The translations under genes were made by a program, and so were the position numbers. From the NCBI GenBank assembly GCA_030622265.1, contig JAUXGG010000022.1:1-11446 (forward strand): a DNA stretch of 11,446 nt, in the 5' to 3' direction. Shown here piece by piece: positions 1-11,446 of this stretch. Position 1 is the first letter of the stretch. Each line of letters starts with the position of its first letter. This stretch comes from Candidatus Eiseniibacteriota bacterium. Lineage in GTDB: Bacteria; Arandabacterota; Arandabacteria; Arandabacterales; Arandabacteraceae. The notes below the pieces were generated by a model. That model had not been told where the DNA came from. It saw only the letters and a program-made list of their open reading frames with translations, and ran no database searches.

Positions 1-569
1 AGGACCAGGATAGGAAGCGGCCCTGCGGTCCAGGCCGTGAGTGTCGGGTTTATGAGCAGCATCATGATGATGCTGAAGACGATCAGGGTCAACGCCTCAT
101 AGAACCTGAAGATCCCGCTGCACGCAAACCACGCCAGCTTGTCCTCGCTGACATCGTCCGTCATCCTGGTGATAAGGTCCCCTGTCTTGAATCGGCTGAA
201 GAAATCCGGCCCTTTCCTGGTCAAGTCCTCGAAGGCGTGCTGCCTGAACTCCCACTCGAGGCGTATGTTCATGTAGGCCCTGTACCCGATGAGGAACGAG
301 CGAATGACAAACCCGGCCAGGCCCACCACGATAAGCATGATCACGTAGTTTTCGATGCGGCCGGCTCCAATGGCCTCCACCCAGCTGCTGACAAACGGCA
401 GTCTGGTCGGTCTTATCTCCCCTGAATGAAGCAGGTCGAAGATGTTCTTAAGCAGTATGGGCTGCAATACCAGCAGCGCACTGCTCAGGAATGATACCGT
501 CAGGAATATGACGAGCGGCCGCTTATGATTCCGGTAGTATCGCCAGAACCATCTGAAATATCTCAGCAT
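1..569 (-). CDS. ABC exporter half-transporter, second subunit (partial, C-terminal part outside window)
   Basis: About 189 N-terminal codons are visible and the frame runs off the left edge without a stop. The translation begins MLRYFRWFWRYYRNHKRPLV and shows a hydrophobic segment (ending near SSALLVLQPILL), a second one (NYVIMLIVVGLAGFVIRSFL) and the cytoplasmic-loop signature FFSRFKTGDLITRMTDDV, which matches the transmembrane domain of type IV ABC exporters. The nucleotide-binding domain must lie to the left. The ATG (569-567) overlaps the TGA of the upstream ABC gene by 7 nt in another frame and is preceded by a GAGGAAGG ribosome-binding site, so the two are translationally coupled and probably form a heterodimeric exporter of the BmrC/BmrD or TM287/288 type. 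Substrate cannot be read from sequence. Confidence 0.93.
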   Translation of the reverse strand, partial: MLRYFRWFWRYYRNHKRPLVIFLTVSFLSSALLVLQPILLKNIFDLLHSGEIRPTRLPFVSSWVEAIGAGRIENYVIMLIVVGLAGFVIRSFLIGYRAYMNIRLEWEFRQHAFEDLTRKGPDFFSRFKTGDLITRMTDDVSEDKLAWFACSGIFRFYEALTLIVFSIIMMLLINPTLTAWTAGPLPILV

Positions 570-2407
570 GCCTTCCTCACCCCATTCCTGTTTCCGTTCA
601 TGTTCCCATTTCTGTTATTGGGCGCGAACTGAAGCTGCGCGAGCTTCGAATAGTACCCGCCCGCGGCCACCAGCTCGTGATGCGTCCCCTGCTCGATGAT
701 CTCGCCCTCACGTATTACCAGGATCCTGTCCACGTTGAGGATCGTGGACAGCCTGTGCGCGATCACGATCGAGGTGCGATCACGCATCAGGGTCGCAAGC
801 CCATCCTGAATCAGCCGTTCGGTCTCAGGGTCCACCGAACTGGTGGCCTCATCCAGGATCAGGACCTCGGGATCGAAGTGCAGAGCTCTTGCAAAGGACA
901 GGAGCTGCCGTTCGCCGCGGCTCAAGTTGGCACCGCGCTCGGAGAGCTCGCTCTCGTACCTGTCCGGCATGGCCTCGATGAACCTGTCGGCAGAGACCGT
1001 GCGGCAAACCTCAGCCACCCTGTCGAGATCTGTGGTCCCGAAAGAGAGCGCAACATTGCTTGCCACGTTTCCGGGGAACAGAAAGATGTCCTGGAGTACC
1101 AGTCCGAACTTCTCGCGTAAGTTCCTGATGGATATGTCGCGTATGTCGATTCCGTCCACCAGGATTCGTCCCTTCTGCGGGTCATAGAACCTGAGAAGCA
1201 TGTTTATCACCGTAGACTTGCCCCCACCCGTGACCCCGGCCAGGGCATAGCGCTTACCCCTCGGGATCGTGAAGGAAACATCCTTAAGGACATAGTCATC
1301 ATCGCCCGTATACGAGAACCACACATTCTCGAACTTTATCTCCGAGTCGAACTCAGCCCACGCCACGGGCTCCGCAGTATCGGGCACCTTCTCCTCGGTC
1401 TCGAGAAGCCCGAAAATCCGTTTCGCTCCTGCCGCGGCCTTCTGGATAACCGAGACCTCCTCGGCAACCAGGTGAACGGGCTCAAAGAGCATCCGCACAT
1501 AAGTTATGAACATCACCAGGGTCCCGATCGTGAGCCCTCCAGCCCCGGCCCCGGCCCCGGCCCCAACCCAGCGCGTGCCAAAGTACAGCACCAGCGCGAT
1601 GATGAAGGTCTCCATAAAGAATATGAAGTTGAACATGACCACCACGATCAGCTCGGCCACGAGCTGGGGCCGGTACTTTCTCCTGTTGGTCTCGTCCATG
1701 CGTTTCTGGACTTCGTCTGCCTGGTCGAAGATCTGGATGATCTCCATTCCCTGCATGAACTCGGTAAGCGAAGCGGTCACATCAGCCATCCGTTTCCTGA
1801 TCTCGAGCCACTTGGGCGTCGTTAACCGGTGGTAGAAATAGAGCGCGACCGAGGTCACCGGAATGATGATCGCCACCACCAGGCTCAACCTCGGGGACAC
1901 GATGAACATCCATAAGAACATCCCAACCACCAGTATCAGCGACCCGATCATCCCGACCACCGTGTTCGTGAACATCTTCCGCAGAGCTTCGGTATCCGAC
2001 TCCACGCGGGCCATCAGGCGCCCTGTCGGGTTCCGGTCGAAGAACGACACCGACATGCGCATGATGTGATCGAAGAGCCGCCGCCTGAGCAGGATCATCA
2101 CCTTCTGCCCGATGATTTCCATCCTCAAGCGGAACAGGTAGTTGGTGACCAGGAAGATACCCTGCAACAGAACATACAGGAGTACTGTATTGACCAGCCC
2201 ACCGTAGTCGCGCCCACTGATGTCGACATCGATGGCGCGGCGGATCAGGTTCGGTCCCGCCAGGTACACTCCCTTGGAGAGAGCCAGCAGTCCAAAGCAG
2301 ACCACCAGCCATTTCCAATGAGGCTTGAGCAGCGGAAGCAGCCGCTTCAGGGCCTGCCTGGAGCTGATCCCATCATGCCTGTCATCTTCGTAATAAGCTG
2401 ATTCCAT
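563..2407 (-). CDS. ABC exporter half-transporter, first subunit (permease fused to ATPase)
   Basis: A 614-residue membrane-bound multidrug/lipid-type exporter subunit. Residues about 30-320 form the transmembrane domain, with the loop motif FFDRNPTGRLMARVESD at 122-138. Residues about 355-590 form the ATPase: Walker A GVTGGGKST (391-399), Q-loop Gln439, signature LSRGE (495-499), Walker B VLILDE (515-520) with the catalytic Glu520, D-loop SSVD (523-526) and H-loop His551. The signature deviates from LSGGQ, as can happen in one partner of asymmetric heterodimers; the Walker B Glu is intact. An unusual run of alternating Gly-Ala (282-291) sits in the loop before the last membrane helices, and the C-terminus is a low-complexity Asn/Gly/Arg tail (about 597-614). 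It is first in a two-gene operon and is preceded by an attenuator-like leader. Start ATG at 2407 has only a weak GAGAGAG ribosome-binding site. Confidence 0.97.
   Translation of the reverse strand: MESAYYEDDRHDGISSRQALKRLLPLLKPHWKWLVVCFGLLALSKGVYLAGPNLIRRAIDVDISGRDYGGLVNTVLLYVLLQGIFLVTNYLFRLRMEIIGQKVMILLRRRLFDHIMRMSVSFFDRNPTGRLMARVESDTEALRKMFTNTVVGMIGSLILVVGMFLWMFIVSPRLSLVVAIIIPVTSVALYFYHRLTTPKWLEIRKRMADVTASLTEFMQGMEIIQIFDQADEVQKRMDETNRRKYRPQLVAELIVVVMFNFIFFMETFIIALVLYFGTRWVGAGAGAGAGGLTIGTLVMFITYVRMLFEPVHLVAEEVSVIQKAAAGAKRIFGLLETEEKVPDTAEPVAWAEFDSEIKFENVWFSYTGDDDYVLKDVSFTIPRGKRYALAGVTGGGKSTVINMLLRFYDPQKGRILVDGIDIRDISIRNLREKFGLVLQDIFLFPGNVASNVALSFGTTDLDRVAEVCRTVSADRFIEAMPDRYESELSERGANLSRGERQLLSFARALHFDPEVLILDEATSSVDPETERLIQDGLATLMRDRTSIVIAHRLSTILNVDRILVIREGEIIEQGTHHELVAAGGYYSKLAQLQFAPNNRNGNMNGNRNGVRKAC
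1543..1564 (-). repeat. GGGGCC hexanucleotide repeat inside the ABC gene
   Basis: On the coding (minus) strand this reads four GGGG tracts separated by CC, that is (GGGGCC) units with a fourth GGGG run. It encodes the alternating Gly-Ala stretch of the permease domain. Each unit is 6 nt, so gain or loss of units would change the loop by two residues without shifting the frame. Four G4 tracts with 2-nt loops also meet the usual rule for an intramolecular G-quadruplex. Confidence 0.9.
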
Positions 2408-2481: not shown

Positions 2482-2515
2482 AAAAACCCGCCGGACCATC
2501 TTGGCGATCCGGCGG
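2482..2515 (-). terminator. Intrinsic terminator in the exporter leader
   Basis: On the minus strand, CCGCCGGATCG (2515-2505) pairs with TGGTCCGGCGG (2498-2488) around a 6-nt loop. This gives an 11-bp stem with two G-U pairs, followed after one G by five T (2486-2482). It lies about 75 nt before the first ABC start codon and after the leader ORF, so it would stop transcripts before the exporter genes. Its 5' arm is also part of the alternative fold described for 2506-2578. Confidence 0.82.
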
Positions 2516-2578
2516 TTCAGTTGGAGTCCTGGGTGGCTACTTAGAGTTGCCTTCGACCACCTCCATAACCGGCGGACC
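2506..2578 (-). promoter_or_regulatory. Candidate antiterminator of the exporter attenuator
   Basis: On the minus strand, GGTCCGCCGGTT (2578-2567) can pair with AACCGCCGGATC (2517-2506) in 11 of 12 positions (one C-C mismatch, one G-U). Inside it, GGAGGTGG (2564-2557) can pair with CCAC (2536-2533) and CTCC (2526-2523). The 3' arm covers the 5' arm of the terminator, so the two folds exclude each other. The 5' arm is codons 18-22 of the leader ORF, and the leader stop codon lies in the apical loop. A ribosome that reaches the stop would disrupt this fold and allow termination; one stalled early would leave it free to form and allow read-through. The pairing is seen directly; the mechanism is inferred. 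Confidence 0.66.
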
Positions 2579-2630
2579 ACTCGAGGAGGGTATTCACCCC
2601 GAAAGGCTGAATACTGAGAATCGCGATCAT
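2541..2630 (-). CDS. 29-residue leader peptide of the exporter attenuator
   Basis: ATG at 2630 is preceded by GGGAGGAG with suitable spacing, one of the best ribosome-binding sites in the window. The peptide starts MIAILSIQPFGVNTLLEW and ends YGGGRRQL before TAA at 2543-2541. I recognise no homology. Its place between a strong promoter and an intrinsic terminator, upstream of an ABC exporter pair, matches the arrangement known for bmrB ahead of bmrCD in Bacillus subtilis, where translation of a leader peptide controls transcription of the exporter. The sequence is not like BmrB (which is longer), so this would be an analogue. Codons 6-14 also sit in a local hairpin (GTATTCA 2614-2608 with TGAATAC 2596-2590), which could pause polymerase or ribosome. 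Confidence 0.6.
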   Translation of the reverse strand: MIAILSIQPFGVNTLLEWSAGYGGGRRQL

Positions 2631-2659
2631 AGTACTCCTCCCAGGTCCGAGTCCTTCTG

Positions 2660-2690
2660 GATCGATTAAGTTAGATGCCCATTATCGATC
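2660..2690 (-). other. Hairpin in the 5' part of the exporter leader
   Basis: On the minus strand GATCGAT (2690-2684) and ATCGATC (2666-2660) form a perfect 7-bp stem around a 17-nt loop, near the start of the predicted leader RNA and upstream of the leader ORF. It is not followed by a T tract, so it is not a terminator. It may protect the 5' end or fold with other parts of the leader. Confidence 0.4.
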
Positions 2691-2720
2691 ACCCGGTTAC
2701 GGTTGGATCGTTACTCCTTC

Positions 2721-2751
2721 TTGACTTCTACCATACTTGAACGATTATGAT
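2721..2751 (+). promoter_or_regulatory. Possible divergent promoter for the DMT gene
   Basis: TTGACT (2721-2726) and TATGAT (2746-2751) stand 19 nt apart on the plus strand, a long but usable spacing. The -10 is almost the same base pairs as the opposing TATCAT because TATGATA is near-palindromic, so the two promoters could not be open at once. Weak evidence. Confidence 0.3.
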
Positions 2752-2776
2752 ACCCGCTCGTCCCCCTGCTTGTCAA
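2747..2776 (-). promoter_or_regulatory. Strong sigma70-type promoter for the leader and ABC operon
   Basis: The minus strand has a perfect -35 TTGACA (2776-2771), an 18-nt spacer and -10 TATCAT (2752-2747; one mismatch to consensus). Transcription should begin near 2740, giving a leader RNA of about 330 nt before the ABC start codon. A weaker plus-strand promoter overlaps the same -10. Confidence 0.72.
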
Positions 2777-2872
2777 TATATTTGTTCTGGCAGGCCTGTG
2801 ATGCTGTGCCATAATCCCCACACTCGAACATCAGGTACATGTGGGACGCTTCCCCGGAAGAACGGAAACACG

Positions 2873-3514
2873 TTGGGTGAACTCTTCTCAGTACTGGCGG
2901 CCGTAGTCTGGGCCATGGCCGTCATATTCCTGCGAAAGTCAGGCGAGACCGTGTCTCCCTTTGCGCTCAATCTCTTCAGGGTGGCCATAACTGTTCCGCT
3001 GTTCCTCATTACGCTTGTCGCTGCGAAACAGCCCATTCTGTCCGGTGCGCCCGTCTCAGATTATCTCATCCTCTTTGCCAGCGGGATCATCGCAATCGCC
3101 GTCTCAGACACTCTGCTTCACAAGAGCCTTAACATGATCGGGGCCGGGATACCCGCTATCACAGGTTGCCTCTATCCCCCGTTTGTCACCATCATGGCCT
3201 TCCTCATAATAGATGAGAGGCTGGGGCCCTGGCAGTTTGCTGGGATGGGGCTTGTTGCATCCGGCGTGATTGTGGCTGCGAAGCACAAGCCCCCGGAGGA
3301 AGCCTCGCGCAGGCAGATAGCGCTCGGGCTAATGTGGGGAATTCTCGCCATGGCAACGGTGGCTTTCGGCATCCTGATCGCCAAGCCCGTGCTGGTTCGC
3401 TCGTCCGTACTCTGGGCCACCGCGATGAGACAGGCAGGCTCCCTCGCGATCCTGCTCCTCAAGGAACCTTTCACGCGCCGCAAGCTGATCGCGGTTGTGC
3501 TGGGGACAGTATAA
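2873..3514 (+). CDS. DMT/EamA family permease, internally deleted and truncated (probable pseudogene)
   Basis: Inner-membrane metabolite or drug transporter of the drug/metabolite (10-TM EamA) superfamily. From the TTG at 2873 it is 213 residues, against about 280-300 in the family. The first EamA repeat looks complete (start GELFSVLAAVVWAMAVIFLR to SGVIVAA). The second begins normally (SVLWATAMRQAGSLAILLL) but then jumps in frame to KEPFTRRKLIAVVLGT, a motif that in relatives follows two more helices, so about 70 residues are missing. The last residue and TAA are supplied by the inverted repeat at 3509. The frame is open to an ATG at 2747, but the extra N-terminus looks untranslated (Cys/Pro/Arg-rich, no membrane character), and the TTG has GGAA upstream and begins the conserved N-terminal helix. 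Probably non-functional. Confidence 0.82.
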   Translation: MGELFSVLAAVVWAMAVIFLRKSGETVSPFALNLFRVAITVPLFLITLVAAKQPILSGAPVSDYLILFASGIIAIAVSDTLLHKSLNMIGAGIPAITGCLYPPFVTIMAFLIIDERLGPWQFAGMGLVASGVIVAAKHKPPEEASRRQIALGLMWGILAMATVAFGILIAKPVLVRSSVLWATAMRQAGSLAILLLKEPFTRRKLIAVVLGTV

Positions 3515-3566
3515 AAAGGGGACAGCGCCCTTTTCTTGTGAAAAGGGCGCTGTCCCCTTTTTATAC
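3509..3566. repeat. REP-like perfect inverted repeat with GGGGACAG core
   Basis: Positions 3509-3535 and 3540-3566 are perfect reverse complements (27 bp) around the 4-nt loop TTGT. Each arm starts GTATAAAAAGGGGACAGCG. An extra direct copy of GGGGACAG lies just outside at 3502-3509. GGGGACAG palindromes of this kind recur in many bacterial genomes and resemble REP/REPIN elements moved by RAYT (Y1 HUH) transposases; no transposase is in the window. GTATAA at the outer end of each arm gives Val-stop to both converging genes. Confidence 0.88.
3515..3560. terminator. Bidirectional intrinsic terminator formed by the inverted repeat
   Basis: Read from either strand, the stem GGGGACAGCGCCC with its complement is followed directly by TTTTT and then ATAC. 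It therefore fits a rho-independent terminator for the DMT gene (plus) and for the cysteine desulfurase-like gene (minus). Confidence 0.75.
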
Positions 3567-10026: not shown

Positions 10027-11446
10027 TTACTTCAGCACCACGAGCTTTTGTGTATCCGAGTGAACGCCGGTGTGCAGTCTCAAGAAGTAGACCCCGTCAC
10101 TGAGATCGCCAACCTCGAGCTTGCAGGTGTGGCGCCCTGCCTCCATATAGGAATTCACGACCTTGCCAACCTCTTGACCGAGCACATCGTACAGGATGAC
10201 GGTGACAAGAGAGGCCTCAGGGACGACGTATCGAACCGTGGCCGAGGGATTGAACGGATTCGGGTAAATCCTGCTTATTCCCGCGACCAGGGCGCCAGTC
10301 CGGTCCCCACCTACCGCAGTTGTCACATACAGGTGAGTCGCGAATTCCGGCAGGTCGATGAATGGATTGCGATTGTTCTGAATGGTGAAGATGGTAGCGT
10401 TTCTCTCAAGTTCCTTCTGGCTGACGGGATCCGCCGCATGCCAATCGAGAAACATGTCTATCGCCCAGGGCAAGAGGTCTGCACCGTCCGTCATGGGGCT
10501 TCCCGGCCAGCCGGCATCTTCTGTGTAATACCTGGTGGTCATATAGAAGTATGTGCGTGCAAGGTCGCCTTTGTACTCGTCGATCGGCTCAAAGACGGTC
10601 TCCGAGTACCCCGGGTAAGAACATGGGCCTACCTCGCTCCCATTCAGTGATACCCACAGAGGTGAAGTGACCTCTCCGTACGGGTACACACCGCGGCTGC
10701 CGTTCACATGAGCATCGCAGGGGTAAAGCGCGAAGAGATCTGAATTCATGGGCGCCACGTCGCCGCCAAACCAGCTCTTGGGCCACGAATGCTCACGGGT
10801 GTAGCCCATACCTTCCTGCCCCCCGATGCCGCCCTGGTCAACGCCAAAAGTGTACTCATACGGTGGCGTGCCCCCGGGAATGTCAGAGTAGATGTCCCAC
10901 ACCTTTCCGTTGGGTTTATCATCGGTGGTATAGAAAGCGGTCCACGCATAGTCATAACTATGGACGGTATGGTTCTTGATGATATCGTGAAGCGCAGCCC
11001 TAAGCTCCTCGCCGGCGAGGTTATCGACGCTGTCATAGTAGCCCTCTGGAAAGCTGGTGTCTACGAAGTTGAACACCTCATTGACATCAACCATGACATT
11101 CCCGTAAAGATCTTCCACGCCGCTCACCGTCAGCGTATATGCGCCCTCAGACATTGCGGATACGGTCAACAGGACCTGATCAGGATATACTCCGTACATC
11201 TCCACGCCCACTACACTCAGGCTGTCGATCATGTAATTGCCACTCGTTTCGGCGGAAGTTTGCTCAACCTCCTCCGAGAATGTTACGATGACGGTCGTAT
11301 CACTCGCAACGGCAATGCCGTCTATGGCCGGCGCCGAACCGTCCGCAACCCATGCAATATCGTCTCCATCCCTGGGCTCGATCTTGAAGTTCCCGTAGGT
11401 AAACGTTACAGGTCCGCTGACGTCGTATGACGAGCCGAGGACAGGC
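10027..11446 (-). CDS. Secreted endonuclease I-type nuclease with Ig-like and C-terminal sorting-like domains (partial)
   Basis: The frame is open to the right edge, so the signal peptide and N-terminus are outside; 472 residues are visible. Domains: an Ig-like beta domain of the SbsA type (about 11400-11060: DTTVIVTFSEEVEQTSAETS ... YTLTVSGVEDLYGN), then an Endonuclease_1 (EndA/NucM/Vvn) core (about 11030-10345) with the His-Me finger motif TREHSWPKSWFGG (catalytic His codon 10791-10789) and the downstream NNRNPFIDLPEF, and finally a FlgD-like/T9SS type A-like module (about 10270-10030) with IYPNPFNPS, LYDVLGQEV and DGVYFLRL. The family cleaves DNA and RNA non-specifically outside the cell. 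The C-terminal module suggests export through a type IX-like route or surface attachment. An internal ATG at 11232 is not the true start because the Ig-like domain continues upstream of it. The end is not followed by a clear terminator. Confidence 0.93.
   Translation of the reverse strand, partial: PVLGSSYDVSGPVTFTYGNFKIEPRDGDDIAWVADGSAPAIDGIAVASDTTVIVTFSEEVEQTSAETSGNYMIDSLSVVGVEMYGVYPDQVLLTVSAMSEGAYTLTVSGVEDLYGNVMVDVNEVFNFVDTSFPEGYYDSVDNLAGEELRAALHDIIKNHTVHSYDYAWTAFYTTDDKPNGKVWDIYSDIPGGTPPYEYTFGVDQGGIGGQEGMGYTREHSWPKSWFGGDVAPMNSDLFALYPCDAHVNGSRGVYPYGEVTSPLWVSLNGSEVGPCSYPGYSETVFEPIDEYKGDLARTYFYMTTRYYTEDAGWPGSPMTDGADLLPWAIDMFLDWHAADPVSQKELERNATIFTIQNNRNPFIDLPEFATHLYVTTAVGGDRTGALVAGISRIYPNPFNPSATVRYVVPEASLVTVILYDVLGQEVGKVVNSYMEAGRHTCKLEVGDLSDGVYFLRLHTGVHSDTQKLVVLK

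Follow-up and report, generated by a model that had tools for sequence, protein, structure and literature searches.

The attenuators of enterobacterial trp operons combine 1:2, 2:3 and 3:4 helices with a short open reading frame (ORF), and a ribosome at the stop codon blocks the antiterminator. For bmrB-bmrCD, the available parts of the published study report that translation of the leader is required for efficient and for lincomycin-induced read-through, that two terminator mutations abolish control, and that drugs targeting the 50S subunit induce, whereas kanamycin and gentamicin do not (PMC4191407). Inducers of that system include lincomycin, erythromycin and chloramphenicol. An anti-antiterminator is also predicted there, without a known role (PMC4191407). 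The upstream ORF (uORF) toiL of topAI-yjhQ in E. coli senses several classes of ribosome-targeting antibiotics via ribosome position and is, as far as the accessible text of that report goes, the nearest multi-drug uORF sensor (PMC12121999). Naville and Gautheret described "ABC-leaders", which are intrinsic-terminator attenuators before ABC transporter operons, one of them before a multidrug exporter of lactobacilli (PMC2965389). The five shown in the accessible part of their paper come from Firmicutes and Gammaproteobacteria, their mechanism was left open, and one is a T-box (PMC2965389).

The window, that is the whole stretch of 11,446 nucleotides that was analysed, carries an element of this general kind. 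Its order on the minus strand was confirmed as promoter, 29-codon leader ORF, antiterminator, intrinsic terminator and then a heterodimeric ABC exporter. With the trp attenuators it has in common the three-helix layout, the short ORF and the predicted block of the antiterminator by a ribosome at the stop codon; unlike them, it shows no run of control codons, has its first arm ahead of the ORF and acts on an exporter. In so far as bmrB-bmrCD is covered by the consulted sections (PMC4191407), both systems place a leader ORF, a terminator, an antiterminator and an anti-antiterminator before a heterodimeric ABC exporter with one degenerate site. The bmrB leader has 53 codons and a terminator inside the coding region, whereas here the terminator lies beyond the end of the ORF, whose stop codon falls within the antiterminator loop, arm 1 stands ahead of the ORF, and the anti-antiterminator covaries; the two were compared by layout. 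While toiL acts on translation initiation and Rho-dependent termination, the present element has an intrinsic terminator (PMC12121999), and unlike the ABC-leaders, as far as these are described in the accessible text (PMC2965389), one leader-ORF element here tracks one exporter across three phyla. A description of the present leader was not found among the matches listed in a literature search that took in few subscription papers.

Layout of the leader and its exporter

The window is contig C156 of a genome (G000) of 2.29 Mb that is 74% complete, and among named relatives the closest that was found is "Candidatus Eisenbacteria bacterium CSMAG_463", a MAG with a 95% identical exporter. The features are listed in Table 1.

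Table 1. Features of the attenuator and exporter in the window, with the evidence for each
Feature	Position	Strand	Basis
Sigma-70-type promoter, TTGACA-18-TATCAT	-35 box 2776-2771, -10 box 2752-2747	-	11/12 consensus matches
Arm 1, part one; putative anti-antiterminator 5' arm in the 5' UTR (CCGUAACCGG...)	2686..2702	-	pairs with CCGGUUAUGG
Arm 1, part two; UCGGACC, adjoining the Shine-Dalgarno sequence	2644..2650	-	pairs with leader GGUCCG in the fold
Shine-Dalgarno sequence of the leader ORF, GGGAGGAG	2635..2642	-	sequence; ORF and Shine-Dalgarno rule across the family
Leader ORF, 29 codons, MIAILSIQPFGVNTLLEWSAGYGGGRRQL, then stop	2541..2630	-	sequence and homologous leaders
Arm 2, within the leader ORF; alternative partners arm 1 and arm 3	2563..2580	-	folds and covariation
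Arm 3; terminator 5' arm and antiterminator 3' arm	2506..2517	-	folds and covariation
Intrinsic terminator, 11 bp with T5	2482..2515	-	fold; kept in orthologues
First ABC exporter subunit, 614 aa, canonical Walker B (LILDE)	563..2407	-	Pfam ABC_membrane and ABC_tran
Second ABC exporter subunit, cut by the window end	3..569	-	Pfam ABC_membrane

The original prediction had called the promoter perfect, which applies to the -35 box, and its 18-nt spacer (one base above the ideal) and coordinates also stand; the -10 box, however, matches the consensus at 5/6 positions only. Across the family, promoter-like sites with at least 10/12 matches lie upstream of 57/90 leaders, compared with 2.9% of base shuffles. 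The 29-codon leader ORF and the 11-bp terminator with T5 were found where they had been placed. The terminator stem (2515-2488) has 11 pairs followed by G and T5, at -21.1 kcal/mol, and its end lies 74 nt before the exporter start. Terminator-like matches in the window number 13, against 7.4 +/- 3.0 in shuffles; since this excess is insufficient by itself, the terminator is proven by its conservation. The alternative helix was likewise recovered as predicted, with 2578-2567 pairing to 2517-2506 at 11/12 positions (one G-U pair and one C-C mismatch), so that the 5' arm of the terminator is consumed. Its own 5' arm corresponds to codons 18-22 of the leader, and the stop codon (2543-2541) is in its loop, 25 nt before the terminator.

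For the first exporter subunit, the top-scoring solved structures are P-glycoprotein-type ABCB transporters, and its matches among solved bacterial heterodimers include 6raf_A, which we take to be TmrA, TM_0288, and YheH, presumably BmrD. The second subunit has a full-length orthologue in locus L033 with a degenerate Walker B motif, LILDD, and the solved structures listed for that orthologue are all ABCB-type eukaryotic transporters. LILDD-type sites are the degenerate sites of such ABC heterodimers. By its sequence, the exporter is thus an asymmetric heterodimer of the BmrCD/TM287-288 kind, and the view of the locus as a bmrB-bmrCD-like attenuator ahead of an ABC exporter pair is borne out by this and by the comparisons given below. 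The canonical subunit comes first here, which is the reverse of the order in bmrCD.

Some further features of the window were recorded on the way. Upstream and divergent, an EamA-type transporter gene (2747-3514, plus strand) appears decayed, since by eye about 75 internal residues are absent relative to its orthologue in L033 (2082-3134, minus strand). At its end, positions 3516-3559 form a perfect 20-bp inverted repeat with a 4-base loop and a GGGGACAG core, labelled REP-like by us, which attracts spurious Rfam matches; the sub-threshold Rfam matches in the window come from this repeat, and another Rfam match is a tRNA in L122. The ORF at 10027-11445 (minus strand) combines an Endonuclease I domain with a Por secretion-system C-terminal tail and apparently encodes a secreted nuclease.

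Occurrence of the attenuated exporter in three phyla

Within the window's phylum, the exporter orthologue (75-100% identity) and the leader occur in the same 5/8 genomes, and the searches found neither of them in G002, G005 and G007. The leader ORF, the terminator and the shared motif were also present on the Zixiibacteriota contig L035 of genome G060. A covariance model built from six sequences gave matches in 33/132 genomes of the G060 phylum at E <= 0.01, and 22/28 parsed model loci were leaders that stand before the orthologous exporter or before a shortened version of this exporter. Low-scoring matches (L077, L084, L087, L088, L090 and L098, also L067 and L069) were rejected as chance terminators or other genes. 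Searching with the exporter itself gave a match at E <= 1e-120, orthologues and paralogues taken together, in 106/132 genomes. The locus set finally comprised 94 orthologous loci from the G060 phylum and five from the window's phylum (99 in all), with L151 (63 bases), fragments of G082, G135, G112 and G075, and L189 (match from residue 149) removed before counting.

A strict hairpin rule recognised the terminator in 41/94 orthologues of the G060 phylum and in 5/5 of the window's phylum. By a looser folding rule the numbers were 83/94 and 3/5, and the two loci missed (the window and L003) were among those caught by the strict rule. Terminator and leader ORF were called together in 86/99 loci, a count that includes L121 and L138 with masked leaders, of which L138 shows no clear leader-terminator pair and is not trusted. 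Six further loci were recognised by eye (the window, L003, L105, L168, L170 and L172). Of the remaining seven, two run into contig ends (L124 and L126), three lack a clear leader (L146, L150 and L184), one has a terminator that has decayed (L141), and in L182 a terminator is present. In two genomes, an extra copy of the leader stands before a shortened exporter frame (L094 in G083, 320 aa; L082 in G087, 269 aa), with another exporter match elsewhere in each genome.

Paralogues of the G060 phylum (39-41% identity, first 20 listed) had a hairpin by the strict rule in 0/20 cases and by the looser folding rule in 1/20, that one lacking a credible leader. Of 47 homologues elsewhere, with at most 43% identity, 38 were without a T-run hairpin within 400 nt and nine had one, at -8.7 to -17.1 kcal/mol; in the same 400-nt scan, all eight orthologous loci had a hairpin, at -18 to -26 kcal/mol.

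A wider search took in 386 genomes, which for the most part come from across the domain, and gave an exporter match at E <= 1e-145 in 12. Two of these 12 (G376 and G504) belong to a third phylum, in which 4/7 genomes examined carry the orthologue and the putative leader switch was seen in 3/3 readable loci. L212 and L217 have the leader ORFs MTAYNTNSVCRSAVFRPGGKLIR and MIRNRMMPYASPCALFGGKG, respectively; both loci have a terminator, and their antiterminator duplexes reach -18.5 kcal/mol in L212 and -20.1 kcal/mol in L217. In L211, the same layout was recognised by eye; a C interrupts its T-run and the automated rule reported no terminator. L218 is cut by the contig end and was unreadable, and no leader switch was seen by eye in L213-L216 (42-47% identity).

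A FastTree phylogeny was computed for 45 exporters, among them a chosen subset of 26 attenuated ones; with midpoint rooting these 26 fall into a single clade (support 0.80). The window's phylum is nested among the type-A loci of the G060 phylum, of which six were in the tree (L100-L105, joint support 1.0). This topology suggests a single origin of the attenuated exporters and transfer between phyla. It may be added that the type-A exporters group with the window's phylum and not with the rest of their own. By the comparative evidence, the predicted ribosome-controlled attenuator is real, old and widespread. The original prediction, which spoke of such logic having arisen in an FCB-type bacterium, therefore understated the case, as the element is common to three phyla and tied to one orthologous exporter.

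Competing helices and translation of the leader

The model proposed for the element has four arms: arm 1 would lie in the 5' UTR and extend as far as the Shine-Dalgarno sequence, arm 2 would be a segment of the ORF about nine codons before the stop, and arms 3 and 4 would be the 5' and 3' arms of the terminator, with 1:2, 2:3 and 3:4 as the possible pairings. In its fold of lowest energy, the leader has arm 2 paired to the 5' UTR, CCGUAACCGG (2702-2693) with CCGGUUAUGG (leader codons 20-23) and UCGGACC with GGUCCG, and further pairing joins the Shine-Dalgarno region and the ORF. This 5' UTR helix is the anti-antiterminator, which was absent from the original prediction, and the layout is accordingly 1:2, 2:3 and 3:4.

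The helices were examined by a partner-swap test, in which the duplex energy of each locus's own arms was compared with that of arms exchanged between loci. Over 64 dissimilar loci, helix 2:3 reached -20.7 with its own arms and -17.0 with swapped ones (z = -11.0), and helix 1:2 reached -22.0 and -18.9 (z = -8.0), while the control pairing 1:3 gave -10.7 and -10.5 (z = -1.0). With 84 loci the z values were -11.8 for 2:3, -8.3 for 1:2 and -1.0 for the control. The arms were picked with the same energy model that was used for testing, a point answered by the swap and by the 1:3 control. L121 and L138 were excluded from the pairing tests for masked leader bases, which left 84 loci, or 90 after the six recognised by eye were added. 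Compensatory changes, which the original prediction had named as a check on its two helices, were found in both.

A descriptive table of pairs in 87 loci, read from the best duplex or fold per locus, goes in the same direction, the swap being the actual test. For the antiterminator pair, five or six standard types occur at positions 4 to 8 of arm 3 and two to four at positions 0 to 3, and the terminator pair varies as well. Position 7 of arm 3 is paired with arm 2 in 81/87 loci and with arm 4 in only 41/87, and thus 2:3 is selected separately and is no by-product of 3:4. Arm 2 starts at a median of 28 nt before the stop codon and spans -28 to about -10 (84 loci), a near-constant spacing. By eye, an inner hairpin UUGUGA...UCACAA around the stop codon is visible in several leaders of the G060 phylum. 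In the 5' UTRs of many leaders of that phylum, CGTAA or CGTAG is seen repeatedly, a few dozen bases before the leader start, again by eye.

The leader ORF was assessed by a rule asking for an ATG ORF of 20-36 codons, a Shine-Dalgarno duplex of -5 kcal/mol or better and a stop starting 12-40 nt before the hairpin. It held in 74/90 loci, as against 1.6% of 1800 dinucleotide shuffles; the 90 loci were mostly preselected by a looser ORF rule, and relative to all 99 loci the 74 still make up three quarters. Conservation of the ORF among relatives, also put forward at the outset, is thereby upheld. Most leaders have 22-33 codons and end about 20-30 nt before the terminator. The parts of the element, their conservation and covariation, the ORF and the spacing of arm 2 to the stop codon have thus been established by comparison and calculation.

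Taken together, the locus very probably encodes a trp-like and BmrB-like ribosome-position attenuator with three mutually exclusive helices that controls the asymmetric ABC exporter, opened by an early stall and closed when the leader is finished. A ribosome that completes the leader and sits at the stop codon would cover arm 2, the 3:4 terminator would form and the exporter would be off. A ribosome stalled or slow in the first half of the leader would keep arm 1 off arm 2, which would then be free to form 2:3, and the exporter would be transcribed. Where no ribosome is present, 1:2 could form first and favour termination. We infer that translation of the leader decides the outcome, that slowed translation, for example by ribosome-targeting antibiotics, is the signal, and that compounds of this sort are the cargo of the pump. 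To take any stalled ribosome as the signal may go too far, because kanamycin and gentamicin failed to induce bmrB in the experiments described in the accessible sections (PMC4191407).

These states were calculated for 90 loci by folding the RNA downstream of a placed ribosome up to the terminator loop. With the ribosome at codon 9, arm 3 was held by arm 2 (mean probability > 0.5) in 88/90 loci, and with the ribosome at the stop codon in 0/90, an outcome that is partly built in because the fold begins downstream of the ribosome. At equilibrium and without a ribosome, arm 3 pairs with arm 2 above 0.5 in 69/90 loci; the untranslated off state would therefore require that 1:2 forms first, or it may leak. 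The gain from stalling over the untranslated state is modest, with means of 0.76 and 0.60, and exceeds 0.2 in 23/90 loci. Before arm 3 exists, the mean pairing of arm 2 with the UTR is 0.56, compared with 0.26 for a shuffled and 0.32 for a swapped UTR, and the real UTR beats the shuffled one in 80/90 loci and the swapped one in 75/90.

Alternative explanations and significance

The many leaders that share a peptide motif might be taken for sequence-specific arrest peptides, in which a C-terminal S-x-G-Y-G-G or R-G-G-R/G halts the ribosome together with a drug or metabolite, the RNA following suit. Such a reading is in line with arm 2 lying in one reading phase in 55/62 type-B and 10/12 type-A leaders (the motif could not be placed in 15/91), and with a proline five codons before the motif in 28/73 leaders, against a background of 5.7% (73/91 leaders have the motif pattern and entered the proline analysis). 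All four proline codons are used within the eight codons before the motif, and a glycine stands two codons after the proline position in 21/73 leaders. The motif, however, is arm 2 itself, and RNA pairing therefore explains why it is shared. The single frame is also broken in both types: arm 2 lies in other phases in L104, L105, L113, L142, L156, L158, L163, L169 and L178 (the ORF calls of L104, L158 and L178 are uncertain, and L104 has a second frame in the usual phase without a Shine-Dalgarno sequence, which makes its phase exception uncertain), and downstream of the stop codon in L141 and L153. One phase prevails, yet the RNA and the position of the stop are kept even in off-phase leaders. 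S-x-G-Y-G-G was dropped as an arrest peptide, as the same RNA is found in other phases and after the stop codon. The peptide is weakly constrained: in 29 overlapping pairs, uncorrected pN/pS is 0.73 ahead of arm 2 and 0.67 in the ten final codons. A ribosome halted at the motif would hide arm 2 and thereby promote termination. Arrest by a specific peptide is thus unlikely. Shortage of one amino acid, with the ribosome stalling at control codons as in trp, would fit the three-helix layout of the trp attenuators and an ORF length within the usual range. The commonest residues before arm 2, though, are mixed (I 12%, N 10%, L 9%), no run of a single amino acid is visible in the listed leaders, the Gly and Arg codons belong to arm 2, so that a stall at them would shut the switch, and the target is an exporter and not a biosynthetic operon, all of which makes this explanation highly improbable.

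A riboswitch or a protein-binding attenuator with an incidental small ORF could be imagined from the extended conserved fold that arms 1 and 2 form, and in the accessible part of their description the possibility of an aptamer was left open for the "ABC-leaders" of other taxa (PMC2965389). An ORF with its Shine-Dalgarno sequence in place, at a frequency far above that in shuffles, speaks against this, and the leader was matched by no Rfam 15 covariance model, either in the window (E <= 1) or in the 12 loci searched (E <= 0.1); the idea is quite improbable, though somewhat less so than amino-acid attenuation. Least credible of all is that there is no switch, but a small upstream gene with its own terminator and an independently transcribed exporter. 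The distance from the terminator end to the exporter start would leave room for a promoter, but the antiterminator pairing is kept where the terminator is unpaired (position 7), and the element tracks one exporter clade and not its paralogues.

For the preferred ribosome-position attenuator, the recurrent proline, often as P-x-G, may be a pause site: a ribosome of the usual footprint that holds this proline in the P site would extend to the edge of arm 2. A more far-reaching version, which is held tentatively and as somewhat less than an even prospect, is that the leader would be a general meter of translation speed and no drug-specific arrest peptide. Ribosome position would be what is conserved, the proline pause would reach the arm 2 edge and leave arm 2 free, and an ancient attenuator would have stayed with a single exporter lineage across three phyla, moving between phyla together with the exporter.

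With this element, ribosome-mediated attenuation of a multidrug-type exporter would be extended from Bacillus to three phyla, represented here mainly by metagenome assemblies. About 90 natural variants of one switch have become available, in which each helix is open to testing by compensatory mutations. Whether the attenuators of ABC transporters descend from an ancient one or were recruited repeatedly, a question raised in the accessible part of an earlier survey (PMC2965389), becomes testable because the element keeps to a single exporter clade and does not go with the paralogues. Should the pump respond to translation inhibitors, the switch would be an environmental marker of antibiotic exposure.
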